DNA of 64,000 nucleotides from Xanthobacter sp. NM-59. GTDB lineage: Bacteria > Pseudomonadota > Alphaproteobacteria > Rhizobiales > Xanthobacteraceae. Positions 338 to 29,289 of this stretch are shown here, piece by piece; position 1 is the first letter of the stretch; every line of letters starts with the position of its first letter. Where the stretch lies: positions 1-64,000 of the forward strand of contig NZ_JACBFQ010000009.1 in the NCBI RefSeq assembly GCF_021401125.1, in the 5' to 3' direction. The translations under genes and the position numbers were made by a program. The notes under the pieces were generated by a model. That model was not told the origin of the DNA and searched no databases. It saw only the letters and a list, made by a program, of their open reading frames with translations.

Positions 338-916
338 TCACCCCTTGCGATGCGGCTCGCCCAGGGTGTGCATCAGCCGGTTGGCCCAGCCGAAGATGGC
401 GACCGCATGAATGAGATCCACGATCTCCAGATCGCTCAGCCCCATGTTGCGCAGATGATGGAGGTGATAGCTCGTCACTGACATGGGATCGGTGGTGATG
501 TCCACCGCGAAGTCGAACAGCGCCTGTTCCTCAAGGGGTAGGTCAGCCTTGGCGCCGTTCTCGAAGATTTCGGCGACGATCTCGGGCTTGCGCGCCTGCT
601 GGATATAGCGCGCCGCATGCACAGACGCACAGAAGACGCAATGATTGACCACCGAGGCCCCCAGCGCCCCAAGCTCACGACCGGCGCGGGAAAGACCGCC
701 CTCGCCATACATGATCTCGTTGAACAAGGGCGTGCGCTCGCGCAGCATGTCCGGCTCGTGGGCCAGCACCAGGACATAGGGCGAAACGCCCTTGTTCGAG
801 GGCGTCACCTTCATGGCGTCAAGCTGCTCGGGGGTCGCGCCGGCAAGGTCGACGGGGATGATATGGGGGCGCCAGTCCAGCGGATCGGTGGTGAAATCAA
901 GAACCGGATCTTGCAT
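338..916 (-). CDS. AhpD-like alkylhydroperoxidase (CMD family, Avi_7169-type)
   Basis: A 192-residue carboxymuconolactone-decarboxylase/AhpD-fold protein. It carries the complete peroxidase signature E-x11-C-x2-C-x3-H: Glu81, Cys93, Cys96 and His100 in RELGALGASVVNHCVFCASVH. This supports a thiol-disulfide peroxidase or reductase activity in the cytoplasm. I recognise the type as the alkylhydroperoxidase-domain family that accompanies oligopeptide-type ABC importers (named Avi_7169 family in TIGRFAMs; from memory). The reading frame extends upstream to a TTG at 937 that overlaps the previous stop; I chose the ATG at 916 (MQDPVLDF) because it is the first ATG in frame, but translational coupling at 937 is possible. 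It is the sixth gene of the ABC importer operon and probably handles a reactive by-product of the imported compound. Function within the pathway is inferred. Confidence 0.8.
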   Translation of the reverse strand: MQDPVLDFTTDPLDWRPHIIPVDLAGATPEQLDAMKVTPSNKGVSPYVLVLAHEPDMLRERTPLFNEIMYGEGGLSRAGRELGALGASVVNHCVFCASVHAARYIQQARKPEIVAEIFENGAKADLPLEEQALFDFAVDITTDPMSVTSYHLHHLRNMGLSDLEIVDLIHAVAIFGWANRLMHTLGEPHRKG

Positions 917-933
917 CTCAGTGGCCCTGCATC

Positions 934-1440
934 TCAATGGTCCCGCAGCAGTCGAAGGCCCGCGACGAGCACGATCTGATAGTTCACGAACGCGATGAGG
1001 CCCGAGAGCGCGACGATGTCGCGCTCATCCAGCCCACTCGCTTTCAGGGCCTCGATATCGGCCCGCGTCGCGCTTTTCGGCTTCAGGGTCACGAGGTCGG
1101 CGTGGCGCAGCACGGCAGCCAGCCGCCCGGCGGGCGCGGGCGGGGACCATGCAGGGTCCGCCAGGGCCGCTTCCGCCTCCCCGCCCCCTTCGGCCACCAT
1201 CCGGGCACGATAATGGGTGGCGAGCTCCTCGCAGCGCCACGCGGCGGCCATGCGCGCGGCCAGGGCCGCCCGCTCGGCGCGAGAGAAGTTGCACGGCTCC
1301 TCGGGCTCGAGAGCGGCGGCGTAGCTGGTCTGCGACAGATGCTTCAGCATCGGCCGCAGCCCGCGCAGTTCCGGGATCGGCGAGGAGGGCGTGAGACCGA
1401 GAACGCTCTCGATCACATCGCCATTCTGACGGGCGTACAT
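934..1440 (-). CDS. CMD-domain protein, cysteine-poor partner (Avi_7170-type)
   Basis: A 168-residue helical protein of the carboxymuconolactone decarboxylase superfamily, matching in context and sequence style the family I remember as CMD domain protein Avi_7170. Unlike its downstream neighbour it lacks the CxxC pair: the equivalent helix reads MAAAWRCEELATHYRARM with a single Cys. It may therefore be a structural partner or a non-redox member of the fold. The frame is open upstream to 1473, but the ATG at 1440 (MYARQNGD) is preceded by AAGGGAG at a proper distance, so I place the start there. It sits between the ABC ATPase (stop at 1470) and the AhpD-like gene, whose frame overlaps its stop codon. 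The pair probably acts together on the imported substrate or its oxidation products. Confidence 0.75.
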   Translation of the reverse strand: MYARQNGDVIESVLGLTPSSPIPELRGLRPMLKHLSQTSYAAALEPEEPCNFSRAERAALAARMAAAWRCEELATHYRARMVAEGGGEAEAALADPAWSPPAPAGRLAAVLRHADLVTLKPKSATRADIEALKASGLDERDIVALSGLIAFVNYQIVLVAGLRLLRDH

Positions 1441-1469
1441 GGGATCTCCCTTCGCGGTGCCGGCCGCCA

Positions 1470-3095
1470 TCACTGGGGCGCGGCCTCGGCGTGGCCCGGC
1501 GGTGTCCAGTTGCGGCCGGGAACCGCCCCGATCAGCATCTGGGTGTAAGGGTGGCGCGGGTTTTCGAGGATGTCGCTCGCCCGGCCAGCTTCCACCATCT
1601 CGCCGTTCTTCATCACGATCAGCTCATCCGTCACCTGCGCCGCCACGCGCAGATCATGGGTGATGAACAGCACTGAAAGGCCGAGCCGCTGGCGCAGGCT
1701 TTCCAGGAGATCCAGCACCTGCGCCTGCACCGACACGTCCAGCGCCGAGACCGCCTCGTCGGCAATCAGCACCTGCGGTTCGGGGGCGAGCGCCCGAGCG
1801 AGGCCGATGCGCTGGCGCTGGCCACCGGAGAATTCGTGCGGATAACGGCTCACCGCCTCCGGATCGAGGCCCACCATCTCGAACAGCAGCCGGGTGCGGT
1901 CCATGGCCTTGCCGCGATCGACGCCGCGGGCCACCAGCCCCTGCGCCACCAGCTCTCCCACCCGGCGGCGCGGATTGAGCGAGGCGAAGGGATCCTGGAA
2001 CACCATCTGCACCTTCTGGCTCTCCCGCCGCCACTGGCGCGCGGACAGGGCCAGAAGGTCTTCCGAACCCAGCGTCACGCTGCCGGTATCGGCCGCGATG
2101 AGGCGGGCGACGCAGCGGGCGGTGGTGGACTTGCCGGACCCGCTCTCACCGACGATGCCCAAGGTTGCGCCACGCCGCAGCTCGAACGACACGTCGCGCA
2201 CCGCATGGGTCACGCGGCCCTTGCCGAACAGGGTCTTGCGCCCATAGGTCTTGGACAGGCCGCTCACCCGCAACAGCACCTCGTTGTCACACGGCGGGCG
2301 CGCGGTGGGCTTCAGCGGCGGCACGGCGGCGATGAGGCTCTGGGTATAGGGATGCTGCGGATTGTTGAGGATCTCGCTGGCGGGGCCCTGCTCCACCACC
2401 TTACCCCACTGCATCACCGCGACCCGGTCGGCGATCTCCGCCACCACGCCGAAATCGTGGGTGATGAAGAGCACCCCGGTGCCCTTGCGCTTCTGCAGGT
2501 CGCGGATCAGCTTCAGGATCTGCGCCTGGGTGGTCACGTCGAGGGCGGTGGTGGGCTCGTCGGCGATCAGCACCGCCGGTTCAAGCGCCAGCGCCATGGC
2601 GATCATGGCCCGCTGGCGCTGGCCGCCCGACAGCTCATGGGGAAACGCCTTGGCGGCCGCCACGGGATCGGGGATCAGCACCTCGCTGAGCAGCTCCTGC
2701 ACCCGCTTGGCGGTCTCCGTCCGCGTCAGCTTGGTGTGGACGCGGAACACTTCGCCGATCTGGTCGCCGATGGTGCGCAGCGGGTTCAGGGCCGTCATCG
2801 GCTCCTGAAAGATCATGCCAATCCGGGAGCCCCGGATTTCGCGCATGGCGGGCTCCGGGAGGGAGAACAGCTCCTGGCCGTCCAGCCGGGCCTGCCCGGC
2901 CTGGATACGCACCGAGGGGGGCAGCAGGCGCATGATGGCCCGACCGGTGGTGGATTTACCGGAACCGCTTTCGCCCACCAGGCACAGGATCTCGTTCGAG
3001 CCCAGGGTCAGCGAGACGTTGTCCAGAGCGAGCGGCCGGTCGGCGCCCTTGGGCAGGGCGACGGAGAGGCCTTCGACGGCGAGACGATGGCTCAT
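1470..3095 (-). CDS. Peptide-type ABC transporter, fused double ATPase
   Basis: A 541-residue protein with two complete ABC cassettes, equivalent to DppD and DppF joined in one chain. Cassette 1 has Walker A GESGSGKSTTGR (residues 41-52), signature ELSGGQRQRAM and Walker B VLIADEPTTALD. Cassette 2 has Walker A GESGSGKSTTAR, signature EFSGGQRQRIGLA and VLIADEAVSALD, in which the usual Pro of the Walker B stretch is replaced by Ala. Each cassette ends with the HPYTQ segment typical of the oligopeptide/nickel family. The protein energises import through the two permeases encoded just upstream. The ATG at 3095 overlaps the permease stop as ATGA, indicating translational coupling. Substrate class is di/oligopeptide-like by homology; the real substrate is unknown. 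Confidence 0.93.
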   Translation of the reverse strand: MSHRLAVEGLSVALPKGADRPLALDNVSLTLGSNEILCLVGESGSGKSTTGRAIMRLLPPSVRIQAGQARLDGQELFSLPEPAMREIRGSRIGMIFQEPMTALNPLRTIGDQIGEVFRVHTKLTRTETAKRVQELLSEVLIPDPVAAAKAFPHELSGGQRQRAMIAMALALEPAVLIADEPTTALDVTTQAQILKLIRDLQKRKGTGVLFITHDFGVVAEIADRVAVMQWGKVVEQGPASEILNNPQHPYTQSLIAAVPPLKPTARPPCDNEVLLRVSGLSKTYGRKTLFGKGRVTHAVRDVSFELRRGATLGIVGESGSGKSTTARCVARLIAADTGSVTLGSEDLLALSARQWRRESQKVQMVFQDPFASLNPRRRVGELVAQGLVARGVDRGKAMDRTRLLFEMVGLDPEAVSRYPHEFSGGQRQRIGLARALAPEPQVLIADEAVSALDVSVQAQVLDLLESLRQRLGLSVLFITHDLRVAAQVTDELIVMKNGEMVEAGRASDILENPRHPYTQMLIGAVPGRNWTPPGHAEAAPQ

Positions 3096-3922
3096 TGTTC
3101 ATCCAGTCGAGGATTGAGGGCGTCGTTCAGTCCCTGTCCGACCAGAGACACGGCGAGAACGGTCAGCAGGATGGCGAAGCCGGGAATGGCGCTCACATAC
3201 CATTCCGAGCGGAGCACGGAGCGGCCCAGGCCCACCAGATTGCCCCAGGAGGGCACGTTGGGGTCGGAGAGGTTGAGGAAGGCCAGGGAGCTTTCCAGCA
3301 GGATCGAGGTGGCCATCACCACGCTGGCATAGACGATCACCGGCGGCAGGGCGTTGGGCAGGATCTCGCCAAAGATCAGGCGGGTGTCGCTGAGCCCCGA
3401 GAGGCGGGCGGCCTCCACGAACTCGCGATTTCGAAGGGTCATGAACTCCGCCCGTGTCAATCGCGCTGGTGCGGGCCAGGAGACGACGCCGATGGCGATC
3501 ACCACCATCTCGATGCGCGAGCCGAACACTGCGATGAGCAGCAGCAGCAGCAGAAAGTTGGGCAGGGTCTGGAAGGCATCGGTGATGCGCATCAGCACCT
3601 CATCCACCAGCCCGCCATAATAGCCGGCCACCGCGCCCACCAGGATGCCGACCGCAATGGCCAGCGAGGTGGCCACCACGCCGATGAGCAGCGAGATGCG
3701 GGCGCCGTAGAAGATCTGGGCGGCGATGTCGCGGCCCATATTGTCGGTGCCCAGCCAGAAACGCGGGTTGGCCATGGGCCATTGCAGGGGCCGGCCCGCC
3801 AGGGACAGCGGATTGCGGGGAAAGAGGAAATCCGCGCTGAGCGCCAGCAGCACTACGGCCACCAGCAACACCAGCCCCATCACCGCCGACGAATTGCGGA
3901 AGTAACGCTTGAAGGCGGGCAT
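3092..3922 (-). CDS. ABC transporter permease, DppC type
   Basis: A 276-residue inner-membrane permease. The N-terminal segment MPAFKRYFRNSSAVMGLVLL leads into a first transmembrane helix, and the sequence FWLGTDNMGRDIAAQIFYGARIS is the hallmark of the DppC/OppC subfamily (LGTDxxGRD). About six helices are predicted by eye. The EAA-like loop (EAARLSGLSDTRLIFGEILPNALPP) contacts the ATPase. It forms a heterodimer with the DppB-type permease whose stop lies only 3 bp upstream of this start, and it overlaps the ATPase gene by 4 bp downstream. The role is import of the ligand delivered by the binding protein encoded at 4960-6555. Confidence 0.93.
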   Translation of the reverse strand: MPAFKRYFRNSSAVMGLVLLVAVVLLALSADFLFPRNPLSLAGRPLQWPMANPRFWLGTDNMGRDIAAQIFYGARISLLIGVVATSLAIAVGILVGAVAGYYGGLVDEVLMRITDAFQTLPNFLLLLLLIAVFGSRIEMVVIAIGVVSWPAPARLTRAEFMTLRNREFVEAARLSGLSDTRLIFGEILPNALPPVIVYASVVMATSILLESSLAFLNLSDPNVPSWGNLVGLGRSVLRSEWYVSAIPGFAILLTVLAVSLVGQGLNDALNPRLDEQ

Positions 3923-3925
3923 GGA

Positions 3926-4906
3926 TCAGTTTCCTTTCCCGCGGATACGCGGATCGAGGCGGGCATAGATCAGGTCCACCGCGAAGTTGACCAGGATCAC
4001 CAGCAAAGCCGAAATAAAGACGATGCCGAGCAAGGTATTCAGGTCGCGCTGCACCACAGATTCGTAGGCGAGGCGCCCCAGGCCCGGCAGGGTGAACACG
4101 CTTTCCACCACCACAGCGCCACCGAGCATGGTGCCGGCATGCAGGCCGATCAGCGTGACCAGCGGCAGCAGCGCGTTGCGCAGGATGTGTCGGGTCACGA
4201 TGGAAGTTTCGTCCACACCCTTGGCCCGCGCCGTGCGCACGAAATCGAGCGTCGACACCTCCAGCATGGAAGCACGCATGATCCTGAGATAGGTGGCGAG
4301 GAAGATGAGGCTCAAGGTGATGGTGGGCAGCACCATGTGGTAGGCGATGTCCGCCGCCCGCCCCCAAGCCGAATATTCGACGCCGATCTCCTCGAAGCCG
4401 CCGGCCGGCAACCAGCCGAGCTTGATGGAGAAGATCACCACCGCCATCAGACCCAGCCAGAAGGCGGGCGTGGCGTAAAACAGCATGCCGAGGGTGGAAA
4501 TGAGCGTGTCCTGCCAGCGATGCACATAACGCGAGGCGATGACGCCCAGAACAACGCCACCCAAGGACGCGAGGGTAAGGGACGAGGCCATGAGCAGCAG
4601 GGTGACGGGCAGCCGCTCGAAGATGACATCGGCAACCGGCTTGCCATAGATGGCCGAATAACCGAGATCCAGATGCACCAGCCGCACGAGATAGTCGGCA
4701 AGCTGGATCCAGGCCGGCGTATCGACACCGTAATGCTGGCGCAGGGTTTCGATCATCTTGGCGTCGCCGCCGCCCATCTGGGCGAGAAGCGCGTCCACCG
4801 TGTCGCCGGGGGCGAGTTGCAGCAGGCCAAAGACGCCCACCAGGATAATCAGAAGGCTCGGCAGGCTGATGGCCAGACGCCGCAGCGCGAAACTCAACAG
4901 TTGCAT
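3926..4906 (-). CDS. ABC transporter permease, DppB type
   Basis: A 326-residue inner-membrane permease starting MQLLSFALRRLAISLPSLL, the usual DppB/OppB beginning (LRRL...P.L). It has the conserved GDTVDALLAQ region near residues 36-45, several hydrophobic helices, and an EAA-type loop (ARAKGVDETSIVTRHILRNALLPLVT) for ATPase docking. A longer frame opens at a GTG at 4963, but that would code through a perfect GC-rich hairpin (4928-4953) lying between this gene and the binding-protein gene. I therefore place the start at the ATG at 4906. The hairpin implies that the permease and ATPase genes are expressed at a lower level than the binding protein. Confidence 0.92.
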   Translation of the reverse strand: MQLLSFALRRLAISLPSLLIILVGVFGLLQLAPGDTVDALLAQMGGGDAKMIETLRQHYGVDTPAWIQLADYLVRLVHLDLGYSAIYGKPVADVIFERLPVTLLLMASSLTLASLGGVVLGVIASRYVHRWQDTLISTLGMLFYATPAFWLGLMAVVIFSIKLGWLPAGGFEEIGVEYSAWGRAADIAYHMVLPTITLSLIFLATYLRIMRASMLEVSTLDFVRTARAKGVDETSIVTRHILRNALLPLVTLIGLHAGTMLGGAVVVESVFTLPGLGRLAYESVVQRDLNTLLGIVFISALLVILVNFAVDLIYARLDPRIRGKGN

Positions 4907-4927
4907 GGGGGGCGTCCCAAGGCTGGT

Positions 4928-4953
4928 CCGGGCGCCGCCGAAGCGGCGCCCGG
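4928..4953 (-). terminator. UUCG hairpin between binding-protein and permease genes
   Basis: A perfect 11-bp stem (CCGGGCGCCGC / GCGGCGCCCGG) closed by a four-base loop that reads TTCG on the transcribed minus strand, giving the very stable C(UUCG)G tetraloop. No U-tract follows, so it is more likely an RNA-stabilising or partial-attenuation hairpin than a full terminator. It lies 6 bp after the binding-protein stop, the usual place for an element that raises binding-protein mRNA over permease mRNA in ABC operons. Confidence 0.7.
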
Positions 4954-4959
4954 ATCGTT

Positions 4960-6555
4960 TCACAGATAGAGGTCGTGCCAGGAGCTGGAGGGCCAGCGCG
5001 GCGTATTATTGTCGTTCTGCAGCTTGACGCTGGCGGCGGTGGTGAACAGGCGCTCGGTGGCGAACCACACCGGCAGCTCCTCATTCACCATCTGCACGAA
5101 CTTGGCGTACAGTGCCTTGCGCTTGACGGGATCGATCTCGGACGCCGCCTCGTCGATCAGCTTGTCGAGGGCCTCGGACTTGTAGCCGAACTGGTTGGTC
5201 CAGGGCGCACCCTTCGGGCTACCGGAGCGGAACCACACCGTGGTGGAAACCGCCGGATCGCCGCGATACTGGTGCCAGCCGGTGGCCAGATCGAAGTTCC
5301 ATTCCTTGTAGATGGTCGCCAGCGCGCCCGCATTGTCGAGCTGCACCACGTCCACCTTGATGCCCACTTCCGCCAGCGACTGCTGGATGTAGGTGCCGAA
5401 CAGCGGAACATCTTCCGCGTTCTGCACAGGCACCAGGCGCAGGGTGAAGCGATTGCCGTCGGCGCCGCGCTTGTAACCGGCCTCGTCCAGCAGCGCCTCG
5501 GCCTTCTTGCGATCGAACGGATAAGGGAAGGTGCCGCCGGGATAGAAGGCCTTCGACACCGAGGGGATCGGGCCGGTGGCCACCTTGCCGTTGCCATAGA
5601 GGAAGTTCTCGATGAAGAACTCGACGTCGATGGCATGGGCAATGGCGCGGCGCACCCGCACGTCCGCCAGCTCCTTGCGGCGGTGGTTGAACTCGACCGT
5701 GTTGTTGAACGGGTTCGCCTCGTTGCCACGGGTGCCGACGGAGAAGCGCGGATCCTTCTTCAGGCGATCGAGATCAGCGAGCGAGAGCTGGTTATAAGCG
5801 GAAAGCTGGACCGCACCGGTTTCCATCGCCGCGGCGGCCGCCGACTTGTCGGTGATGAAGCGCCAGGCGATGCGGTCCACATAGGGCTGGTCCTTGCGCC
5901 AGTAATTCGGGTTGCGCTCGGCGATGATGTACTGGCCGCGCTGGTATTCCACGAACTTGAACGGGCCGGTGCCGATGGGCGCGGTATTGGCGGGATTGTC
6001 GAGCGGGTTCGTGCCCTCATACAGGTGGCGCGGCACCAGATAGCCCAGGTCCACCATGGCGCGCAGAAGCAGATCCAGCGGCATGGGGCGAGAATAGCGG
6101 AAGATGGCCGTACGGTCGTCCGGCGTATCCACCGCGTCCAGGTAAAGCTGAAGCTGGGTGCCGTAGTTCTGGTACTTCTTCCAGAGCTGCATGGCATTGT
6201 ACTGCACGTCGGCGGACGTCAGCGGCTTGCCGTCGTGCCAGGTCACGCCTTCGCGCAGCTTGAAAGTCACGCTCTTGCCGTCGGGCGCGGCCTCCCAGGA
6301 TTCGGCCAGCACCGGGACGATGGAGCCGTCTTCCCCGAGATCCACCAGCGCTTCCACGATCTTGCCGGTGACGATGAACACCGAGGTCGAGGCACGGATG
6401 GCCGGATTCAGGATGCGCTGCTCGGCGCCGAGCTGAACTGTCAGCACCCCTCCCTTCGTAGGCGTGCTTTCGGCCGCGAAGACGCCCTTCGGGAGCACGC
6501 CCGCAAGGGCCGCCGCCGAAACGGAGGCAAGAAGGGTACGGCGAGACAAGTTCAT
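4960..6555 (-). CDS. ABC transporter substrate-binding protein, family 5 (peptide type)
   Basis: A 531-residue periplasmic solute-binding protein of the DppA/OppA family. The N-terminus MNLSRRTLLASVSAAALAG with a cleavage region near VFAAES contains SRRTLL, compatible with Tat or Sec export; there is no lipobox Cys. Family hallmarks are WEAAPDGKSVTFKLREGVTWHDGKP, RNPNYW and the C-terminal ATERLF region. It captures the ligand and delivers it to the DppB/DppC permeases. I recall a related family (SBP KPN_01854, TIGR04028) that co-occurs with the same two CMD proteins, so the operon type is known although its substrate is not. The start at 6555 is preceded by GAGGTGGAAG; a longer frame to 6750 would have no signal peptide at its N-terminus. 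It is the first gene of its operon, about 195 nt below the promoter at 6759-6786. Confidence 0.92.
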   Translation of the reverse strand: MNLSRRTLLASVSAAALAGVLPKGVFAAESTPTKGGVLTVQLGAEQRILNPAIRASTSVFIVTGKIVEALVDLGEDGSIVPVLAESWEAAPDGKSVTFKLREGVTWHDGKPLTSADVQYNAMQLWKKYQNYGTQLQLYLDAVDTPDDRTAIFRYSRPMPLDLLLRAMVDLGYLVPRHLYEGTNPLDNPANTAPIGTGPFKFVEYQRGQYIIAERNPNYWRKDQPYVDRIAWRFITDKSAAAAAMETGAVQLSAYNQLSLADLDRLKKDPRFSVGTRGNEANPFNNTVEFNHRRKELADVRVRRAIAHAIDVEFFIENFLYGNGKVATGPIPSVSKAFYPGGTFPYPFDRKKAEALLDEAGYKRGADGNRFTLRLVPVQNAEDVPLFGTYIQQSLAEVGIKVDVVQLDNAGALATIYKEWNFDLATGWHQYRGDPAVSTTVWFRSGSPKGAPWTNQFGYKSEALDKLIDEAASEIDPVKRKALYAKFVQMVNEELPVWFATERLFTTAASVKLQNDNNTPRWPSSSWHDLYL

Positions 6556-6750
6556 GGCTTCCACCTCATTTGGTGCCGGACGCGACCGGCGCGCGGAGAA
6601 CTCTGACCCCGACTTCCAGGATGCTTGAGGCGGCCCAGGGCCCGCCCCGATCACGCGCCGCAACCCCAATCCGGGACAGCGGCGCTTGGTGTTCACGGTC
6701 ACCCCGACCTGCGCCGGCTGCGGAAGCAGCCGAGGCGGAAGAGCCCGCAA

Positions 6751-6794
6751 CGCTGTCGATTATTCTGAATTCAGGATCGAATTCAATACCGTAT
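6751..6794 (-). promoter_or_regulatory. Shared promoter/operator element, copy 1
   Basis: On the minus strand this contains a -35-like TTGAAT (6781-6786) and a -10-like AATAAT (6759-6764) separated by 16 bp. The spacer holds the perfect palindrome CTGAATTCAG, and the -35 is overlapped by the dyad AATAC-G-GTATT as read on the minus strand. The first 25 bases and the last 11 bases are identical, at the same spacing, to the element at 14292-14335 in front of the second operon of the island. It is therefore most likely the promoter and operator of the ABC operon. Confidence 0.65.
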
Positions 6795-6826
6795 TTTACA
6801 GCTTCGACGCTTTTTTACGCTTCCGC

Positions 6827-6842
6827 AGATATGCACATATCT
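6827..6842. promoter_or_regulatory. 16-bp dyad upstream of the ABC operon promoter
   Basis: AGATATG-CA-CATATCT has perfect 7-bp arms around a 2-bp centre and lies about 40 bp upstream of the -35 box at 6786. The position suits an activator site. I do not find it in front of the other island operon, and no regulator can be assigned. Confidence 0.35.
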
Positions 6843-7223
6843 TGTCCAACCTGCCCATAAAGTACGCTTTTTGCAGTGCAGTCATGATGAGCCTTGCAGC
6901 ACATTGAGCAAACCTCACGCGCATTTTCCCGCCCCGTGGGCCTATGAATGGAAGATGCAGCCCTCGCCGGGCCCTGCGCGCGCAAGCGAATCCGCGCCAA
7001 AGGTCGGCACAGGTGGGGGGGAGAGAAGGCGTCGTCACGGGAGCGGGAAGCAGTCGCCCCGGCCGCCGCACGACTGCACTGCAGCATGAAATGACGGAAT
7101 GAGGGGTGAAGCCGCCCAGGTGACGCCGCAGCGCGCTTTCAGCCGCGTGGAGCGGGAGGGGCAGGCGGTCAACAGACGCGCGGGGATCGGACCCGGGCGC
7201 CGGTGACAATCTCGCGTGGCGCG

Positions 7224-8474
7224 TCAGCGGAAACGGCTGGGGTCGAATCCGTCCAGCGGGATCTCGGTCTTGCGGCCCTCGATGAGGTCCGGCATCAAGC
7301 GGCCGGTCCGGGCCGAGGCGACCAGCCCCACATGGCCATGGCCGAAGGCATAGATCACGTCCGCGGAACGGCGCGAACGGCCGATACAGGCACGCCCGTC
7401 CGCCATCGCGGGGCGGTGGCCCAGCCAGAACTTCGCGCCGGACAGATCGAGGCGAGGATAAAGCCGGGCCAGATGGGCCTTGAGGATCTCGGCGCGTCGC
7501 CAGTCGGGCGCGGCGTCCACGCTGGCAATCTCCACCTGCCCGGCCACGCGCAGGCCGCACTCCATCTCATGCACGACAATCTTGCCGTCGGACGCCATGA
7601 AGCTGGAGGTGAGCCCCACCGAGGCGCCCTCGACCATGACATGGTAGCCACGCTCGCTTTCCAGCGGCATGGGATCCCCGAGCCGGACCGTCAACGGCTT
7701 GGAGCGCGCGCCGGCGGCGATCACCACGCGATCGCATGGCACCTCACCCCGGTCGGTGATCACCGCGCGCAGGCGATCGGCCTCAAAGCGAAAATCGCGT
7801 GCGGCGGCTTCCAGCACCTGCGCACCGCGCGCACGCGCCAACCCGGCGAGCGCGGCCACATAGGCGCCCGGATCGCGGCAGCGCCCTGCCCCTTCCACCA
7901 TGCGGGCCACGGTGTAGCGCTCCGGCAGGGCGGGAACCTCGCGATGCAGCGCCTCGCCCGACAGCTCCCGCCACCGGATGCCCACGCTGGAGCGGATGGC
8001 CCAGCCCCGGTTTTCCGCCGCGAAGGCCGCCTGGTCCGGATAAGCGTGCAGCACGCCGCCGGGGGCAATGAGGTGGGACACCCCGGCTTCTGCCGCCAAT
8101 GCGCTGTGCAGCGCCAGCGTATCCTGGAGCAGCGGCTGGAGAATGCCCGCCGTCCTGGTGATGCGCTCGAAGGTGGAGCCCGCCAGCAGCGAGCGCAGCA
8201 GCCAGGGGGCCACGCGCGGCAGATAGGGCCAGCGGATGGCGAGGGGACCCAGCGGGTCCAGCAGGAACCGGGGCACCTTCTTCCACATGCCCGGCGTGGA
8301 GGTCGGGATCACCGACTGGCAGGAGAGCCAGCCGGCATTGCCGTAGCTCGCCGCCTGCTCACCCCCCGGCCGGCCGGGCTCGATGAGCGTGACCCGATAC
8401 CCCGCCCTGAGCAGCTCGATGGCGCTGATGACGCCCACCGCGCCCGCGCCGATCACGGCGACATGAAGAGACAT
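7224..8474 (-). CDS. DadA-like FAD-dependent amino acid dehydrogenase/oxidase
   Basis: A 416-residue flavoprotein of the DAO (D-amino acid dehydrogenase/glycine oxidase) family. The N-terminal Rossmann motif VIGAGAVGVISAIELLRAGY binds FAD ADP, followed by the family's YGNAGWLS segment, and the C-terminus has the second FAD contact FGHGHVGL. Length equals typical DadA. Such enzymes oxidise an amine alpha to a carboxylate to an imine, passing electrons to quinone or oxygen. RidA, which hydrolyses enamines/imines, is encoded 21 bp upstream, a logical pairing. It is the last gene of the operon that starts at 14210. A D-amino acid, an N-alkyl glycine or another secondary amine are all possible substrates. 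Confidence 0.87.
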   Translation of the reverse strand: MSLHVAVIGAGAVGVISAIELLRAGYRVTLIEPGRPGGEQAASYGNAGWLSCQSVIPTSTPGMWKKVPRFLLDPLGPLAIRWPYLPRVAPWLLRSLLAGSTFERITRTAGILQPLLQDTLALHSALAAEAGVSHLIAPGGVLHAYPDQAAFAAENRGWAIRSSVGIRWRELSGEALHREVPALPERYTVARMVEGAGRCRDPGAYVAALAGLARARGAQVLEAAARDFRFEADRLRAVITDRGEVPCDRVVIAAGARSKPLTVRLGDPMPLESERGYHVMVEGASVGLTSSFMASDGKIVVHEMECGLRVAGQVEIASVDAAPDWRRAEILKAHLARLYPRLDLSGAKFWLGHRPAMADGRACIGRSRRSADVIYAFGHGHVGLVASARTGRLMPDLIEGRKTEIPLDGFDPSRFR

Positions 8475-8495
8475 GATGGCACCCCGGAACAGGAA

Positions 8496-8870
8496 TCAGC
8501 CGACCTCGGCCACGACCTCGATTTCCACCAGCACGTCACGCGGCAGGCGGGCGACCTCCACGCACGAGCGGGCCGGCGCGTGGCTGCCGAAGGCCTCGGC
8601 ATAAACCGCGTTGAACTTGGCGAAATCAGCCATGTTCTTGATGAAGACGGTGGACTTCACCACCTTGTCCAGCGCGCTGCCCGCCCCCGCCAGCACGGCA
8701 CGCAGGTTGGCGAAGACCTGCCGGGTCTGTTCCTCGATCTCAGTGCCCACCACCTCGCCAGCGAGGTTCAGCGGGATCTGCCCGGACGAATAGAAATAGC
8801 CGCCGCTGACGATGCCCTGGGAATAGGGGCCAATGGCGGCGGGAGCGCTCTCAGTCTTCACGATCTTCAT
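8496..8870 (-). CDS. RidA family enamine/imine deaminase
   Basis: A 124-residue RidA/YjgF/UK114 protein. Recognisable features are [23 protein letters not shown] near the N-terminus, [10 protein letters not shown] in the middle and [12 protein letters not shown] with the ligand-binding Arg101. Members hydrolyse reactive enamines such as 2-aminoacrylate, the product of PLP-dependent beta-elimination, or imines from amino acid oxidases. Both kinds of enzyme are encoded in the same operon (a PLP enzyme at 12244-13371 and a DadA-like oxidase immediately downstream), so RidA most likely clears their intermediate. The start is preceded by AGAGGAAG. It is cytoplasmic; the strength of the call is high, the exact substrate is inferred. 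Confidence 0.92.
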
Positions 8871-8920
8871 GGAGGTCTTCCTCTTGGAAGCCGGGCCACG
8901 ACCCGGCGAAACGATAATCG

Positions 8921-10597
8921 TCAGGCCCCTTCAGGGCCGGCACCGGTGACCATGTGGTGGGCGCAGACATAGCCCCAGCTCATGAAGGGGCCGAGCGTGG
9001 TGCCCGCCCCCACCCCGCGGGTGCCGATGGGATTGGCCATGGACGCCCCCGCGCAATAAAGCCCTTCCACCACCGAGCCGTCCGCCCGCAGCGCCTGCCC
9101 GAAGGCATTGGTGCGCGGGCCGCCCTTGGTGGTCATGATGGAGCGGTCGAACCGCAGGGCGATGAAGGGCGCCTTCACGATGGGCGAGAGGCCGAGCCGC
9201 TTGCGCTTATCGGCCTTCTGGTGGGCGCGGGTCTGGCCGCGTCCGAAATCGAGATCCACCCCGCCCGCGCACAGAGCGTTGTAGCGCTCCACGGTCGCCT
9301 TCAGCGTCGCCGGCGCGAGGCCGATCTTGCCGGCCAGTTCCTCGATGGTGCGCGCCTTCACCATCCAGCCGGGAACCAGCCGCGCGAAATGGCGCACCAA
9401 AGGCGCGATGGAGAGATAGGTCGCATCGGTGATGACATGGGCCGGCAGGTGCCGGGGGCGGCCGTCCGCGTCGTATTCGTTGAGGCACTCGCCGATATTC
9501 ATGGCGAGTTCGTCGACGAACCGGCGCCCCTCGCGGTTCACGACGATGGCGTTGGGCTCGGCATGATAGGGCACCGGCATGCCATGCACGGCGCCATGAT
9601 AGCGCTTGGGAATGGCGGCGGTGACATTGGCCTCGTCCATGCGGGCCAGCTCCACGCCGATGGCTTCCGCCATCCGGTGCCCGTCGCCGGCATTGCCCTG
9701 GGGCGGGCCGAAGAATTGCAGCGGCCCCGGCAGATAGCGGGCCATCATCTCCGCATTCCACTCGAAGCCGCCGGTGGCGATCAGCGTCGCCCGCGCCGCG
9801 CGCATGGGGCGCCGGCCGGCGGGCCCCTCGATGATGGCGCCGGTGACGCGCCCGCCTTCCTCTATCAGCTCCACGCCGCGCGCGTTCAGCTCGAACCGAC
9901 AGCCATGGTCCAGGCAGCCGCGCACCAGCCCGATCATCAGCGCCGTGCCCTTGCCGGCCGACAGCGTGAGCAGGCGGGGCAGAAGGCGGGGCAGCAGCTT
10001 CATCGTGGTGGAGACGGGCTTGTGATAAAGGTCCGTCTCCAGCACCTCATGATAGGTGAACACCTCCGGCAGCGTGGACCCGCGCACCCTGAAGGCCAGA
10101 TGGCGCGCCGCGAGGCGGCTGATGGGCCGCGGCGACACCATGCGCCCCACAGCCCGCGCGCCGGGATGTGCGGCATAAGGGTCCGGCTCCCCGGTCAGGC
10201 GGAAGCGCAGCGGCGTGCGCTCCTCGATCATGCGCAGCATATGCGGGCCGGCCAGCACCATGTTGCGCCACTGCTCCGGCTCGCGGATGTGGTCGGGCGA
10301 CACCGAGGCGATGTAGCCGATGGCGTCCTCCACATCGTCGGCAATGCCGGCGGCGCGGGCGAGGTGGTTGGCGGGAACCCAGATCCCCCCCGCCGACATG
10401 GCGCTGGCGCCGCCCAGAAGGGCGGTCTTCTCACACACCAGAACCTTGAGCCCCGACGCGGCCGCATGGAGCGCCGCCGTGAGGGCGGCGCAGCCCGAGC
10501 CGAGCACGAGAACGTCGCAATCGGCGCCAGTTCCTGAGGTTTGCACGTTCGCCACCTGCTCGCTCGCCACCTGCTCGCCCACGCCGCTCGCGTTCAA
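8921..10597 (-). CDS. FAD-binding dehydrogenase (FAD_binding_2/fumarate reductase-like)
   Basis: A 558-residue flavoprotein. [19 protein letters not shown] is the dinucleotide-binding motif and [16 protein letters not shown] is typical of the FAD_binding_2 family (fumarate reductase, ketosteroid 1-dehydrogenase, tricarballylate dehydrogenase). The C-terminal FAD segment reads [24 protein letters not shown]. Members add or remove hydrogens across a C-C bond next to a carbonyl. The frame begins with a TTG at 10597 that overlaps the stop of the GGT gene (TTGA); the first 20 residues contain a short repeated EQVA and may not be conserved. No signal peptide is visible, so a cytoplasmic role in the same pathway as GGT is likely. 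The substrate cannot be read from sequence. Confidence 0.82.
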
Positions 10598-12225
10598 CCC
10601 ACCACGGCCTGGCCGTCCCGGCGCGGATCGCTGGCGGCGGCGTAGCCCTCCACCGACGGGTCGCCCATGCGCCAGATGAACTGGCCGGCGCCGAAGTCCT
10701 GGTAGGAATCGTCCAGGATCGCCGCCTCATGCCCCAATGCGGTGAGGCCGGCGAGAAGGGCCGGATCGGTGCCCTGCTCGATATTGATGGCCATGCCCCG
10801 GTCGAAGCGCCAGCGCGGCGCGTCGCAGGCCGCCTGCGGGTTCTGGCCGAAGTCCAGCATGCGCACGAGGGTCTGCACATGGCCCTGGGGCTGCATGTTG
10901 CCGCCCATCACGCCGAAGCTCATCACCGGCTGGCCGTCCTTGGTGACGAAGCCGGGAATGATGGTGTGGAACGGCCGCTTGTGCGGCGCCACCACATTAG
11001 GATGGCCCTCATTCAAGCTGAATCCGAAGCCCCTGTTCTGGAGCGAGAGGCCCCATTCCGGCAGCACCACGCCGGAGCCGAAGCCCATGTAATTGCTCTG
11101 GATGAAGCTGACCATCATGCCCGAGGCGTCGGCCGCCGCGAGATAGATGGTGCCGCCCTTCACCGGATTGCCCGGCGCGAACGGCTGGGCGCGGCGCGGG
11201 TCGATGAGACGGGCGCGGGAGGCGAGATAATCGGCATCCAGCATGTCCTTCGTCGGGATCGCGGCGGCGGCGGGGTCGGCCACGTAGCGATAGACGTCGG
11301 CGAAAGCCAGCTTGATGGCCTCGATCTGGAGGTGCTGCGCCTCCACCCCGTCCACAGCCATGGACGGCAAATCGAAATTGGAGAGGATGCCCAACGCCAT
11401 CAAGGCGGTGATGCCCTGCCCGTTGGGCGGGATCTCATGCACCGTATAGCCGCGATAGGGCATGGAGATGGGCTCGACCCATTCCGGCGCATAGGCGGCC
11501 ATGTCGGCGGCCTTCAGCGCCCCGCCATGGGCACGGGCGTTCATTTCCAGCGCTTCCGCGATCTCACCGCCATAGAGCGCCTTGCCCTTGGTTTCAGCAA
11601 TGCGGCGCAGGGCACGCGCGGCGCCCGGCAGGCGGAAGTGCTCGCCCACGCGCGGCGCGCGCCCGGCGGGCAGGAACGCCTCACTGAAGCCCGGCTGGCC
11701 GACCAGGTCCGGCAGGGTCGCGGCCGCCGCCCACTTGTGCTGCACATTGGTGGAAACGAGCCAGCCCGCCTCCGCGATCTCGATGGCGGGGGCCAGGAGG
11801 TCGGCAAAGGGCAGCCGCCCGAAGCGCTCCGACAGTGCCACCCAGGAGGCCACCGCACCCGGCACGGTCACCGAATCCCAGCCCCTCTTGGGGGGCGTGG
11901 CGGTGTCCTCACCGTACTTGCCGCGGAAATAATCGGGCGTCCACGCGGCCGGGGCGAAGCCGGAAGCGTTGAGGCCATGCAGGCGCTTGCCGTCCCACAG
12001 GATACAGAAGGCGTCCGAGCCCAGGCCGTTGCTGCAGGGCTCCACCAGCGTCATGACGGCAGCCGCCGCAATGGCGGCATCCACCGCATTGCCGCCGCGC
12101 CACAGCATCTGCAATCCCGCCTGCGCGGCGCGCGGATGGGAGGTGGACACCACATTGTTGCCGAACACGGGCAGGCGCCGTGAGGGATAGCCTGCCGTCC
12201 AGTCGAAGGTTCCGTGCATGATCAT
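10594..12225 (-). CDS. Gamma-glutamyltransferase family protein, cytoplasmic
   Basis: A 543-residue GGT/acylase-type N-terminal nucleophile hydrolase. The large-subunit part shows GGNAVDAAIAAAAVMTLVEPCSNGLG, and the autoprocessing site is expected at the Thr of KGGTIYLAAAD (around residue 360), where GGTs self-cleave and use the new N-terminal Thr as nucleophile. The small-subunit part contains NRGFGFSLNEGHPN and PFHTIIP. Unlike E. coli GGT there is no signal peptide (MHGTFDWTAGYPSRR), so hydrolysis of a gamma-glutamyl or similar amide bond would occur in the cytoplasm after import, which fits the peptide-type ABC importer of the same island. The start is ATG at 12225 or 12219. Cephalosporin-acylase-like or other amide substrates are alternatives. 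Confidence 0.85.
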   Translation of the reverse strand: MIMHGTFDWTAGYPSRRLPVFGNNVVSTSHPRAAQAGLQMLWRGGNAVDAAIAAAAVMTLVEPCSNGLGSDAFCILWDGKRLHGLNASGFAPAAWTPDYFRGKYGEDTATPPKRGWDSVTVPGAVASWVALSERFGRLPFADLLAPAIEIAEAGWLVSTNVQHKWAAAATLPDLVGQPGFSEAFLPAGRAPRVGEHFRLPGAARALRRIAETKGKALYGGEIAEALEMNARAHGGALKAADMAAYAPEWVEPISMPYRGYTVHEIPPNGQGITALMALGILSNFDLPSMAVDGVEAQHLQIEAIKLAFADVYRYVADPAAAAIPTKDMLDADYLASRARLIDPRRAQPFAPGNPVKGGTIYLAAADASGMMVSFIQSNYMGFGSGVVLPEWGLSLQNRGFGFSLNEGHPNVVAPHKRPFHTIIPGFVTKDGQPVMSFGVMGGNMQPQGHVQTLVRMLDFGQNPQAACDAPRWRFDRGMAINIEQGTDPALLAGLTALGHEAAILDDSYQDFGAGQFIWRMGDPSVEGYAAASDPRRDGQAVVG

Positions 12226-12243
12226 GTTCCGAGGCAGGGCGGC

Positions 12244-13371
12244 CTAGGGCCTGGTTCCGAAAACGGCGTCGAGACGGGCCGCGTAGGGGGAGACGTCGAG
12301 CCCGCTTTCGGCAAGCCAACGGTCGTCATAAAGGGTGGAGCGATAGCGCTCGCCGGAATCGCAAAGCAGCGTCACGATGGAGCCGCCCTCGCCGCGCGCC
12401 TCCATTTCACCGATCAGATCGAGGCAGGCGGAAATATTGGTGCCCGTCGATCCGCCGCAGGACCGGCCCGTGATGCTGGAAATCTTGCGCGCGGCCGCGA
12501 TGCTCGCCGCATCCGGCACCGCGATCATGCGATCCACCAGGTTGGGGTTGAAGGAGGGCTCCACCTCAGTGCGGCCGATGCCTTCGATCACGCTTTTGCA
12601 GGCGTCGACCCGCCGCACCGAACGATCCGCATAATAGCGATGGAACACCGAGGCGGCCGGATCGGCCACGCACAGGCGCGTGGACAGCTTGCGATAGCGG
12701 ATGTAGCGGCCGATGGTGGTGGCCGTGCCGCCGGTGCCCGCGCCGCACACGATCCAAGTGGGCACGGGATAGATCTCGCGGGTCATCTGGCTGAAGATGG
12801 AATCCGCGATGTTGTTGTTACCGCGCCAGTCGGTGGCGCGCTCGGCGAAGGTGAACTGGTCCATGTAATGGCCGTTCAGGTCGCGCGCGAGATCGCGTGC
12901 CGCCTGCGAGGTGTTCCAGCCGTCGATCAGATGGGGCTCGCCGCCCTGGAACGAGATCGCGGCCACCTTCTCGGGCGAGGTCGAGCGCGGCATGACCGCC
13001 AGAAAGCGCAGGCCCAGCAGCCGGGCGAAATAGGCCTCCGAAATGGCGGTGGAGCCCGACGACGACTCGATGATTGTCGTATCCGGCCCGATCCAGCCAT
13101 TGCACAAGGCGTATAGAAACAGGGAGCGCGCCAGCCGGTGCTTGAGGCTGCCCGTGGGGTGGCTCGATTCATCCTTGAGGTACAAGGTGATGGCCGGATT
13201 GTTCGGCAGCGGAACGCGAATGAGATGCGTGTCGGCCGAGCGATTGATATCGCCCTCGATGCGGCTCACCGCCTCGGCCACCCACTCCCGGTTCCGCGCG
13301 CCCGGGCGGCTTTCGCAAGCGCCCTGGCCCGGCTGCGGCTCCGGCGCGCGCTGGGGGACGGACTGATTCAT
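12244..13371 (-). CDS. PLP-dependent cysteine synthase-like lyase (Cds1 desulfhydrase-like)
   Basis: A 375-residue fold-type II PLP enzyme. Lys77 in [12 protein letters not shown] is the predicted Schiff-base lysine; [13 protein letters not shown] is the substrate-carboxylate loop, [12 protein letters not shown] the phosphate-binding loop and [13 protein letters not shown] the region that contacts the pyridine nitrogen. The sequence resembles, from memory, the mycobacterial L-cysteine desulfhydrase Cds1 more than CysK, with the long [17 protein letters not shown] segment. Beta-elimination would give 2-aminoacrylate plus a thiol or sulfide, matching RidA in the same operon. The start ATG at 13371 overlaps the VOC gene stop (ATGA); a longer frame to 13401 is less likely. 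Beta-replacement activity on an unknown acceptor is the alternative. Confidence 0.82.
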
Positions 13372-14210
13372 GACGGGCTCCGTGCAGAATTGGCGATGCA
13401 AAGAAATTCGAGGTGAAAAGCCGGCAGGGCCAGGGTGGCCACATCCGGGCCATGGCGGTGCCAGACGGCCGCGGGAAGCCCCTGCGCCCGCCGCTCGATC
13501 TCATCGAGCGCTGCGAAGATGAGCTCGGCTGTGACGAAGCGGGCCTTTTCGCCCTTGCGAACCACCAGATCCGCATTGGGCAGCGGCACCCGCCAGCCGG
13601 CGGCGCCGGGCACCACCTGGCTTCCCGCCACGGCGGCATAGCGCTCGGCCATCCGGTCCGCATCGGGGCTTTCAATGATGACGCGGCCGATGCCGCAATA
13701 GCCGTTGGCATGGACCAGCCATTCCGGCCGCCACACCAGATCGGGCGTCATGTGCTGGCAGAAATAGGTGCGCCCCGCCGGCAGGAATCCCGGCGCCATG
13801 CGCACGGTGCGGAAGGCCACATCGCGTTCAACGCCATCCACCACCAGCGGCCGCGAGAAGGCCAAAGGCTCCAGCGCCGGCAGGCCCGCACCCGAGAGGC
13901 GCGCGAAGGTGTCCTCCGCCGTGTCGCTGGCGAAGACGAGGCCGCTGATGCCCAGCGGACTGTCCAGCACCTCCTGGCGCTGCAAGCCCGTCTCAGGCAC
14001 GCCGACCAGTTCAAGATAGGAATCGCGCGACACCATCAGGTGGTTGATGGAGCCCAGGGAATGATGCCCCCGCGGCGTCAGCGTGAAGCCGAGCGCCGCA
14101 AACGCCGCCTCCGCCGCATCCATGTCCTTCAGCACATTGATGACAAGGTGATCGAGCGCGCTCGCCCCGGCCTGCTGCCCGCGTCCCAGATCCGGACTTT
14201 GAATGGACAT
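13368..14210 (-). CDS. VOC superfamily (glyoxalase-like) protein
   Basis: A 280-residue protein of the vicinal-oxygen-chelate fold, closest in appearance to Glyoxalase_3/PF13468. The N-terminal module starts [25 protein letters not shown] with metal-ligand candidates His21 and, later, Glu in YLELVGVPE; a second module around [22 protein letters not shown] completes the tandem fold. Such proteins are metal-dependent isomerases, lyases or dioxygenases. It is the first gene of the island's enzyme operon, about 80 nt below the promoter at 14300-14327, and overlaps the PLP gene by 4 bp. Which step it performs cannot be told. Confidence 0.78.
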
Positions 14211-14291
14211 TCGGCCTTCTCCTTGATGGTCGAGGGGAACTTTGCGACAGCTTCGCCGGGCGGGACAGGGCGACGCAACAGGTATCGGCCG

Positions 14292-14335
14292 CGCTGTCGA
14301 TTATTCTGAATTCAGGTCGAAATGCAATACCGTAT
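14292..14335 (-). promoter_or_regulatory. Shared promoter/operator element, copy 2
   Basis: Minus-strand -35-like TTGCAT (14322-14327) and -10-like AATAAT (14300-14305) are 16 bp apart, with the palindrome CTGAATTCAG in the spacer. The first 25 bases are identical to 6751-6775 and the last 11 to 6784-6794, at the same distance; the 8 bases between differ. It drives the VOC-to-DadA operon and lies between that operon and the divergent GntR gene, as expected for a target of that regulator. Confidence 0.65.
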
Positions 14336-14464
14336 ATCGACATTGCCATGCGCTCCACGCCGCCCGAGAGGCGGCTGGAGGAAGCGCTCCGAGGGGCAGA
14401 CTTTGCGGCACCCTGCTGCGGCAAAGGGGCGAACGGTTGCTGTTTCCTGATTTGCGCGGTACTC

Positions 14465-14484
14465 TGTATGCTAAGCAGCATACA
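14465..14484. promoter_or_regulatory. GntR-type dyad in front of the regulator gene
   Basis: Perfect 8-bp arms TGTATGCT and AGCATACA separated by AAGC, ending 24 bp before the GntR start codon. The half-site TGTATGC is of the GTAT...ATAC kind bound by FCD-type GntR repressors. The position suggests autoregulation. The dyad does not occur in either operon promoter, so different or weaker sites would be needed there. Confidence 0.55.
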
Positions 14485-14508
14485 AAGCGACAGGGAAAGC
14501 GACAGCCG

Positions 14509-15201
14509 ATGAGCGTAGACGCGGACGGCTCGGAAAGCATTGTCGACAGGGTCTACGCCGAGCTCCGCTCGCGTGCGATCAGCTTCGACTTCAAGCCCGG
14601 TGAACGCCTGAACGAGGGCGATCTCGCCAAGGGGCTCGGCGTGTCGCGCACGCCCCTGCGCGAGGCGTTGAACCGCCTGAACACCGAGGGGTTCCTGCGA
14701 TTCTCGCCGGGGCGCGGCTTCTTCTGCCGCGAGCTGGACGCGCAGGAGATCTTCGATCTTTATGAGCTGCGCAAGTCGCTGGAGGTGGCCGCCGTGCGCA
14801 TCTCCGCCGAGCGGGCTTCCGATGGGCAGATCGACTCGCTCTTGTCCTGGCTCAATTCCGCTTTGCCCTCGACCGACCTGGACACGCCCAAGCTGCTGGA
14901 GCTCGACGAGGAGTTTCACGAGCGGCTGATGGCCCTGTGCGGCAATGCCGAGATGCTGCGGGTGCTGCGCAACGTGAATGCCCGCATCCATTTCGTTCGC
15001 CAGACGGACATGACCAGCGCCAACCGCTCCTCCACCCAGCAGGAGCACCGCGTTGTCGTGGAGCATCTCAAGAGGCGCGACGGCCAAAGCGCCGCCCTGG
15101 TGCTCTCCCAGCACATCGACCGCCGGATCGACCGCATCAACGCCGCGATCAAGGAAGGCTACGCGCAGATCTACATGGCCAGCAACGCCCGGCGCAGCTG
15201 A
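14509..15201 (+). CDS. GntR family transcriptional regulator, FCD (FadR) subfamily
   Basis: A 230-residue regulator. The winged helix-turn-helix covers about residues 10-72 (KPGERLNEGDLAKGLGVSRT followed by PLREALNRLNTEGFL). The C-terminal all-helical FCD domain has the usual metal-binding set Asp133-x3-His137, His180 and His202, which in this family binds a carboxylate effector. It is transcribed divergently from the VOC-PLP-GGT operon and is the only intact regulator of the island, so it probably controls both operons through the repeated 44-bp element. The frame is open further upstream to 14242, but that extension would read through the promoter element and the dyad; the ATG at 14509 preceded by GGGAAAG fits the family length. 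Confidence 0.92.
   Translation: MSVDADGSESIVDRVYAELRSRAISFDFKPGERLNEGDLAKGLGVSRTPLREALNRLNTEGFLRFSPGRGFFCRELDAQEIFDLYELRKSLEVAAVRISAERASDGQIDSLLSWLNSALPSTDLDTPKLLELDEEFHERLMALCGNAEMLRVLRNVNARIHFVRQTDMTSANRSSTQQEHRVVVEHLKRRDGQSAALVLSQHIDRRIDRINAAIKEGYAQIYMASNARRS

Positions 15202-28716: not shown

Positions 28717-28792
<76 letters not shown>

Positions 28793-29213: not shown

Positions 29214-29289
<76 letters not shown>

Follow-up and report, generated by a model that had tools for sequence, protein, structure and literature searches.

A two-operon island with a shared promoter block in Xanthobacter sp. NM-59 and its possible role in degrading an acylated cysteine compound

Gene content and the shared promoter block

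We analysed 64,000 nucleotides of the Xanthobacter sp. NM-59 genome (hereafter the window), starting from base 1 of contig NZ_JACBFQ010000009.1 (C36 in our numbering), and studied an island at positions 338–15201 as a candidate system for the uptake and breakdown of an acylated cysteine compound. The island is composed of 13 genes, 12 on the minus strand and one, encoding a GntR regulator, on the plus strand. The minus-strand genes form two dense groups, an importer group and an enzyme group, in which no gap or overlap between neighbours exceeds 50 bases; 668 bp (6556–7223) separate the groups. All 13 genes described by an earlier reading of the DNA from its letters alone (the sequence-only reading) were confirmed by coordinates and by NCBIfam and Pfam scans, which covered 13/13 and 10/13 island proteins, respectively, the ATPase and the two permeases being omitted from the latter.

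The enzyme group begins with the gene of a two-domain VOC protein (13368–14210; Glyoxalase_3, 91.5 bits). This protein has no NCBIfam match and no match in the PDB sequence search at E ≤ 0.1; its predicted model (predicted local distance difference test [pLDDT] 92) resembles 3p8a, HPPD and hydroxymandelate synthase in fold, which names no reaction. The next gene encodes a Cds1-like pyridoxal phosphate (PLP) enzyme of fold type II (12244–13371; NF052478 matched over nearly its full length, 521 bits; PALP, 161.5 bits), whose likeliest start among the possible ones, ATG 13371, gives a 4-base overlap with the VOC gene. It is followed by a GGT-family N-terminal nucleophile (Ntn) hydrolase (10594–12225; G_glu_transpept, 486.8 bits) with a predicted catalytic Thr359. 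The 3-ketosteroid-dehydrogenase-like FAD_binding_2 flavoprotein FAD2 (8921–10597; PF00890, 185.9 bits) and a DadA/ThiO-like flavin adenine dinucleotide (FAD) amine oxidase or dehydrogenase (7224–8474; DAO, 163.1 bits by Pfam) both miss more specific cut-offs (306.6 versus 789 for 3-ketosteroid dehydrogenase, PRK12844; 183.4 versus 383 for D-amino acid dehydrogenase, PRK00711), and PDB sequence searches with either gave no clear ligand. RidA, a 2-aminoacrylate/imine deaminase encoded between them (8496–8870), passes TIGR00004 (160.9 versus 106.25).

The importer group encodes a family-5 solute-binding protein (4960–6555; SBP_bac_5, PF00496, 292.6 bits), with GAGGTGG upstream of its ATG at 6555 and an N-terminus, MNLSRRTLLAS, that resembles a Tat signal by eye. 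DppB/OppB-type (3926–4963) and DppC/OppC-type (3092–3922) permeases follow, then a two-domain DppD/DppF-type ATPase (1470–3095), a single chain with two matching stretches; all three were assigned by NCBIfam. The group ends with CMD2 (934–1473) and the AhpD-like CMD1 (338–916, chosen start ATG 916; TIGR01926, 207.8 bits; PF02627, 59.8 bits). On the same strand, 93 bp past CMD1, the 5' part of an SBF_like transporter gene (2–244; open-ended reading frame, PF13593, 71.9 bits) is truncated by the contig edge. Judged by strand and the 93-bp gap only, it is possibly a further member of the importer operon, and because it runs off the contig edge, this operon may extend past CMD1.

A local alignment of the regions upstream of both operons identified a 45-column block with 25 consecutive identical bases, placed in the same orientation relative to each (14292–14335 for the VOC–DadA operon and 6751–6794 for the importer operon, both on the minus strand). 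On the transcribed strand, both copies feature a −35-like hexamer (TTGCAT and TTGAAT, respectively) and, after a 16-base spacer that closes with the palindrome CTGAATTCAG, AATAAT, with ATACGGTAT ahead of the −35; the promoter scan covered the importer copy, and the VOC-operon copy was read by eye. The exact 18-base core occurs at just these two sites in the 4.96-Mb genome, and one extra site appears when three mismatches are permitted. Nine other genomes contained no exact core; with three mismatches, five sites were found in 4/9. Within the window, the core occurs twice at three or fewer mismatches, and it was found in 0/100 shuffles. When random pairs of window stretches were compared (1,939 in all), a single pair exceeded the block (79 versus 69); it lies inside repeats near 20–23 kb, and the next-best pair (53) corresponded to two stretches in ABC-transporter gene regions. 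Because the core has no other exact genomic copy, we consider that the two operons belong together, as the sequence-only reading had held in treating them as one system, and the block supports a single control over both.

The GntR/FCD regulator gene (14509–15201, plus strand; start ATG 14509; PF00392, 60.2 bits; PF07729, 81.4 bits) is preceded by a perfect inverted repeat, TGTATGCT-AAGC-AGCATACA (14465–14484), a possible operator that differs from the palindrome of the shared block. A terminator scan of 6400–7300 found none. Elsewhere in the window, long repetitive reading frames at ~18400–24250 appear autotransporter-like by eye, their repeats being the source of the one random pair that outscored the block, and two tRNA-Ala (GGC) genes (28717–28792 and 29214–29289) lie ~420 bp apart.

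Recurrence of the island's parts in other genomes

Full-length matches to the GGT homologue at 72–75% identity were identified in 11/396 other genomes of the order sample; a twelfth relative, in G410, is 74% identical over residues 323–543 only (221 residues) and stands outside these 11 loci. The GGT-PLP-VOC core recurs in 10 other genomes, comprising 4/13 of the same genus and 6/11 of the loci above. In the four same-genus genomes (L103–L106), it belongs to a complete cluster of genes for a GntR regulator, ATPase, permease, SsuA/NMT1-type binding protein, MDR reductase, hotdog thioesterase, VOC protein, acyl-CoA ligase, PLP enzyme and GGT homologue. VOC, ligase, thioesterase and reductase genes accompany GGT in 10/11 loci, and the window VOC groups with the VOC proteins of this core in a tree without support values. 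Among the many GGT relatives of 55–59% identity, eight loci (L122–L129) showed no VOC, ligase, thioesterase or MDR gene nearby (0/8). Directly past GGT in L113 and L117 lies a Dpp-type importer, its ATPase 42–43% identical to that of the island, and Dpp-type importer genes were also located near GGT relatives in L121, L122, L126 and L129. The genome of the window contains a second GGT-family gene of the same branch (G000:C30:268846-270453, L110; 73% identical), and no PLP, VOC or ligase match was found in its neighbourhood.

The two flavoproteins recur in other settings. Orthologues of the DadA-like protein were present in 25/316 other genomes (E ≤ 1e-95), with a GntR relative nearby in 5 of the 12 loci examined (66–68% identical in three of them, 57% and 44% in the others); in G031, DadA (54%) adjoins a PLP homologue (55%). 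An FAD2 orthologue at 69% was identified in 1/346 other genomes, namely G237, ~1.9 kb from a GGT gene of 56–57% identity. Cyclophilin-like and BAAT-domain genes lie in the interval, and the neighbourhood also has genes for a VOC protein (39%), a binding protein (33%) and caprolactamase-like proteins (480.8 and 237.4 bits, against cut-offs of 1000). Stretch L130 of this genome (2555–14381) thus holds GGT, FAD2, caprolactamase-like, BAAT-domain and cyclophilin-like genes together with a binding protein.

Importer orthologues were found in 48/346 other genomes (E ≤ 1e-110), and their neighbourhoods were examined in 15 genomes with binding-protein identities of 45–73%, some stretches ending at contig ends. 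A VOC gene is located beside the importer in 13/15 of these (tblastn) and falls in a different branch of the tree from the window VOC. A pipecolate-oxidase-like flavoprotein cluster was present in at least 11 of 17 importer loci (those of the 15 genomes plus L130 and another stretch of G301), and L146 has a RidA-like gene with the importer. We also observed a recurring cluster of importer, Glyoxalase_3 VOC, pipecolate-oxidase-like flavoprotein, cupin and NIPSNAP genes in L147, L149, L152, L153 and L158, the Pfam names being those checked on L147. A PDB sequence search with the island's binding protein returned heme-, opine-, nickel- and peptide-binding proteins as best matches, with no clear ligand.

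Regarding the two CMD/AhpD proteins of the sequence-only reading, CMD1 fits this description, with its PF02627 match and the CxxC that it alone carries (CVFCASVH), and CMD2 appears to be a degenerate partner, with no CxxC and no Pfam match at E ≤ 0.001. CMD2 narrowly passes the Avi_7170 family TIGR04029 (106.0 versus 100.75). CMD1 falls below the cut-off of the Avi_7169 family TIGR04030 (149.3 versus 233.15) and the binding protein below that of the KPN_01854 family TIGR04028 (105.6 versus 468.5), and membership of the KPN_01854 system was rejected for both. Because one of the three proteins passes its family cut-off, the KPN_01854/Avi_7169/Avi_7170 label given earlier fits CMD2 alone; KPN_01854 was not found by name in the open-licence literature, and KPN_01858 is named in one paper there. 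CMD2 has matches in 13/296 other genomes (E ≤ 1e-12), and CMD1 adjoins CMD2 in 8/8 CMD loci examined. In G237 and G277, the two of these loci in which a bisC-family S/N-oxide reductase was tested for, this gene and a Dpp-type importer share a cluster with the CMD pair. In G277, a Cds1-like PLP gene (55%) is divergent from CMD2, alongside the CMD pair, importer and reductase. The clusters of L172 and L177 combine importer, CMD pair and bisC-family S/N-oxide reductase, with a Cds1-like PLP gene in L177, and suggest import of an S- or N-oxide.

The operons could in principle be two systems that merely share a promoter, the importer and CMD proteins serving one compound and the VOC-to-DadA operon another. 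This would fit the importer occurring without an adjacent GGT or PLP match in 15 genomes and the GGT-PLP-VOC core being paired elsewhere with an SsuA/NMT1-type importer. However, both operons carry the promoter block, whose palindrome lies in the −35/−10 spacer, and Dpp-type importers do flank the GGT cluster (L113 and L117) and the CMD pair plus PLP gene (G277); we consider separate systems rather unlikely. The island looks like a mosaic, in which a GGT-PLP-VOC core, a GntR-DadA pair, a G237-like flavoprotein and an importer with its CMD pair were brought under one promoter block.

The PLP enzyme and the GGT-family hydrolase

Eleven distinct PLP enzymes of the clusters are monophyletic (support 0.989) with respect to 80 further homologues, from genera including Sphingomonas, Vibrio and Micromonospora; the duplicate genomes L004, L005 and L006, present in the first tree, had been removed. 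Across these 11 + 80 sequences, 118/357 positions are near-invariant, including K87 of the SLKHR motif, which by analogy would be the PLP lysine. Candidate specificity differences of the cluster clade are confined to residue 165 (serine; mostly tyrosine elsewhere) and C-terminal position 380, and mid-chain, residue 165 alone separates the clade from the others. A gene for an Lrp/AsnC-type regulator is located near the PLP homologue in 28/93 loci (median 893 bp between midpoints; loci counted after skipping eight repeats, with the duplicates L004, L005 and L006 included), and one member tested gave an Lrp match under the cut-off. For Cds1 of M. tuberculosis, published data point strongly to cysteine being converted to H2S, pyruvate and ammonia (PMC8389258). 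Based on the conserved Cds1-like core, the few differences and these data, we consider cysteine or an S-substituted cysteine the likeliest substrate. The sulfur-containing cysteine compound of the sequence-only reading is thus the favoured candidate, with the G277 cluster and its S/N-oxide reductase adding to the conserved core.

The closest solved structures of the GGT homologue are 2nlz (516.7 bits), a B. halodurans protein (PMC8062742), and 2i3o (233.6), with full-length E. coli GGT at 184.2 bits, and the enzyme misses the TIGR00066 equivalog cut-off (317.8 versus 357.85). The catalytic threonine (T359) and the oxyanion glycine pair are kept, and no signal peptide was seen by eye. In a 38-row alignment, the window enzyme has S, Y, R, G, H and T where E. 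coli GGT has R114, N411, Q430, D433, S462 and S463; in 2nlz, the same positions are occupied by S, Y, R, N, H and T, and the B chain of 5hft, which covers five of them, has Y, R, A, H and T. Leaving aside E. coli, 2nlz and 5hft, 35 rows remain (the window enzyme and relatives, with some duplicates from overlapping loci), and R114, N411 and D433 are conserved in none of these. The window enzyme therefore carries the S/Y/R/H-T pocket signature of the YwrD/HpxW branch, its best structures being 2nlz, 2i3o and 5hft (beta part). R114/S88 and N411/Y378 are listed among the sites that separate E. coli from B. halodurans GGT in a study that, unlike the present alignment, pairs S462 with I422 (PMC4568574). 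YwrD is described as intracellular, with no role assigned in the review's account of it (PMC8062742). A predicted structure of the GGT homologue (pLDDT 39.6, seven close sequences) was not used. By its title, the 2004 work of Minami et al. reportedly found GGT, not YwrD, important for extracellular glutathione use in B. subtilis. Based on the pocket residues, the TIGR00066 score and the YwrD/HpxW branch, the amide cut by the island's hydrolase is probably not gamma-glutamyl, and the R/H/T pocket would suit an acyl group that is small and acidic.

Such an acid could also be carried by a sulfur-free beta-substituted alanine, for example in an N-oxalyl-diaminopropionate-like amide, with an HpxW-like hydrolase removing the acid and the PLP enzyme expelling an amine or other group. 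At E. coli positions 411, 430, 462 and 463, the pocket has the same residues (Y, R, H and T) as the B chain of 5hft, which we take to be HpxW, an oxamate amidohydrolase, and RidA here together with the acyl-CoA ligase of related clusters would fit. The PLP enzyme, however, retains the near-invariant Cds1-like core, with a single mid-chain residue setting its clade apart, and we regard a sulfur-free substrate as unlikely.

The sequence-only reading had envisaged import of a gamma-glutamyl compound (glutathione or gamma-Glu-Cys derivatives), with GGT stripping the glutamyl group in the cytoplasm. GGT family membership by Pfam and the conserved Thr and Gly pair are in accordance with this, and the released cysteine would supply the Cds1-like enzyme. 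Single residue losses are also reported as tolerated: R109S of B. licheniformis GGT, which places Ser at the Arg position, retained 85% activity, so that this position alone is not decisive, and D445A of B. subtilis GGT retained 40% hydrolysis (PMC8062742). However, the same review gives E. coli R114L and R114D as having no detectable activity, and the window enzyme has S, Y and G at R114, N411 and D433, scores below TIGR00066, matches 2nlz far better than E. coli GGT and falls in the YwrD/HpxW branch. On these grounds, we set the gamma-glutamyl substrate aside as very improbable. An antibiotic-modifying or detoxifying set with a cephalosporin-acylase-like hydrolase is hardly credible, since the label of the closest solved structure on which it draws, cephalosporin acylase, is the depositors' molecule name and the gene context looks catabolic, even if D433N is reported to bring E. 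coli GGT some acylase activity (PMC8062742).

Proposed function and comparison with known systems

The interpretation that we favour, with confidence a little short of even, is a co-regulated two-operon catabolic island for a cysteine compound acylated with a group other than gamma-glutamyl, which would be imported, hydrolysed at its amide and desulfhydrated, with RidA acting next. The binding protein and importer would take up the small acylated compound, and the YwrD/HpxW-branch Ntn hydrolase, self-cleaved at Thr359, would hydrolyse its amide, releasing a small acid other than gamma-glutamyl. The Cds1-like enzyme would then beta-eliminate sulfur from the freed cysteine or S-substituted cysteine, yielding sulfide or a thiol and 2-aminoacrylate, which RidA would convert to pyruvate and ammonia. 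The remaining amine and carbon part would be left to the two flavoproteins (DadA-like and FAD_binding_2) and the VOC enzyme, and CMD1 and CMD2 may deal with peroxide or thiol redox by-products. This is the simplest chain we found using the families present. The order in the sequence-only reading, from import through amide cleavage and PLP elimination to RidA, is coherent; of that reading, one system and probably cysteine chemistry are retained, and the gamma-glutamyl group is not.

Several observations weigh against this interpretation. None of the island's enzymes has a known substrate, and the PLP enzyme falls short of the NF052478 cut-off (600). The GntR regulator is only presumed to bind the shared block. 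The co-occurrence of both operons in other genomes expected earlier holds for sub-modules, and the exact arrangement was seen in none of the other genomes sampled. The PLP gene is absent from 5/11 GGT loci (present in 6/11), and thus not essential to the GGT module, and is found at only one of the eight CMD loci (G277). A search of 17 selected relatives, 13 belonging to the same genus, gave no FAD2 at E ≤ 1e-100, and the bisC-type reductase of G277 has no counterpart at E ≤ 1e-40 in the island's own genome. No PLP, GGT, FAD2, DadA, RidA or CMD match was identified at 1e-8 near the importer in the stretches of the 15 genomes, and since the importer's companions in those stretches are a VOC protein from a different branch and, in many cases, a pipecolate-oxidase-like flavoprotein, this importer may carry a sulfur-free nitrogen compound.

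N-malonyl-type cysteine S-conjugates are plant end products of foreign-compound detoxification. The GGT-PLP-VOC core might represent an undescribed bacterial route degrading such N-acyl cysteine S-conjugates, in which the YwrD-branch hydrolase would remove the acid, the Cds1-like enzyme would free the thiol, and acyl-CoA ligase, thioesterase and reductase, or FAD2, RidA and DadA, would finish. We consider this decidedly speculative; the ligase of the related cluster matches NCBIfam unspecifically (best PRK06187, 318.9 against a cut-off of 476; malonyl-CoA synthase PRK07514, 228.5 against 558) and thus lends no support to the malonyl idea. For N-malonylcysteine in connection with bacteria, the open-licence literature yielded a single paper, which deals with mycotoxin conjugates in grain. 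If true, such a route would provide the YwrD branch, roleless so far, with a function. The island offers a concrete and testable context for three groups of ill-defined role, namely this branch of the GGT family, Cds1-like enzymes in catabolic operons and importer-linked CMD pairs, and the duplicated promoter shows which genes belong in joint testing. It also cautions that a GGT-family gene is not automatically a glutathione enzyme.

All families of the island are already known; their combination was not met in the open-licence literature searched. The hydrolase resembles the YwrD/HpxW branch (2nlz, 2i3o and 5hft) in its Ntn threonine, its S, Y, R, H and T pocket residues, as in 2nlz and the 5hft beta chain, and the absence of a visible signal peptide. 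It differs from HpxW in context, since the latter presumably acts on oxamate in urate breakdown and 0/13 island genes match such a pathway. The PLP enzyme shares with the L-cysteine desulfhydrase Cds1 (Rv3684) the near full-length NF052478 match and, with its relatives, the near-invariant core, but remains under the equivalog cut-off and sits in a catabolic-looking operon. The adjacent CMD pair with a CMD2 that passes TIGR04029 is reminiscent of the Avi_7169/Avi_7170/KPN_01854 importer-CMD families, whose cut-offs the island's binding protein and CMD1 miss. Importer-VOC-flavin amine oxidase clusters of the same order are close in their binding proteins (60–73%) and permeases (68–77%; closest 11 loci) and in VOC Pfam family, although no GGT, PLP or CMD match was found in the examined stretches and the VOC branch differs. 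Finally, the GntR-SsuABC-like-MDR-thioesterase-VOC-acyl-CoA ligase-PLP-GGT cluster of the window's genus and Methylopila/Hansschlegelia has orthologous GGT (72–83%), PLP (73–81%) and VOC (49–56%) proteins, but lacks FAD2, RidA, DadA and CMD orthologues and instead features another importer together with ligase, thioesterase and reductase.

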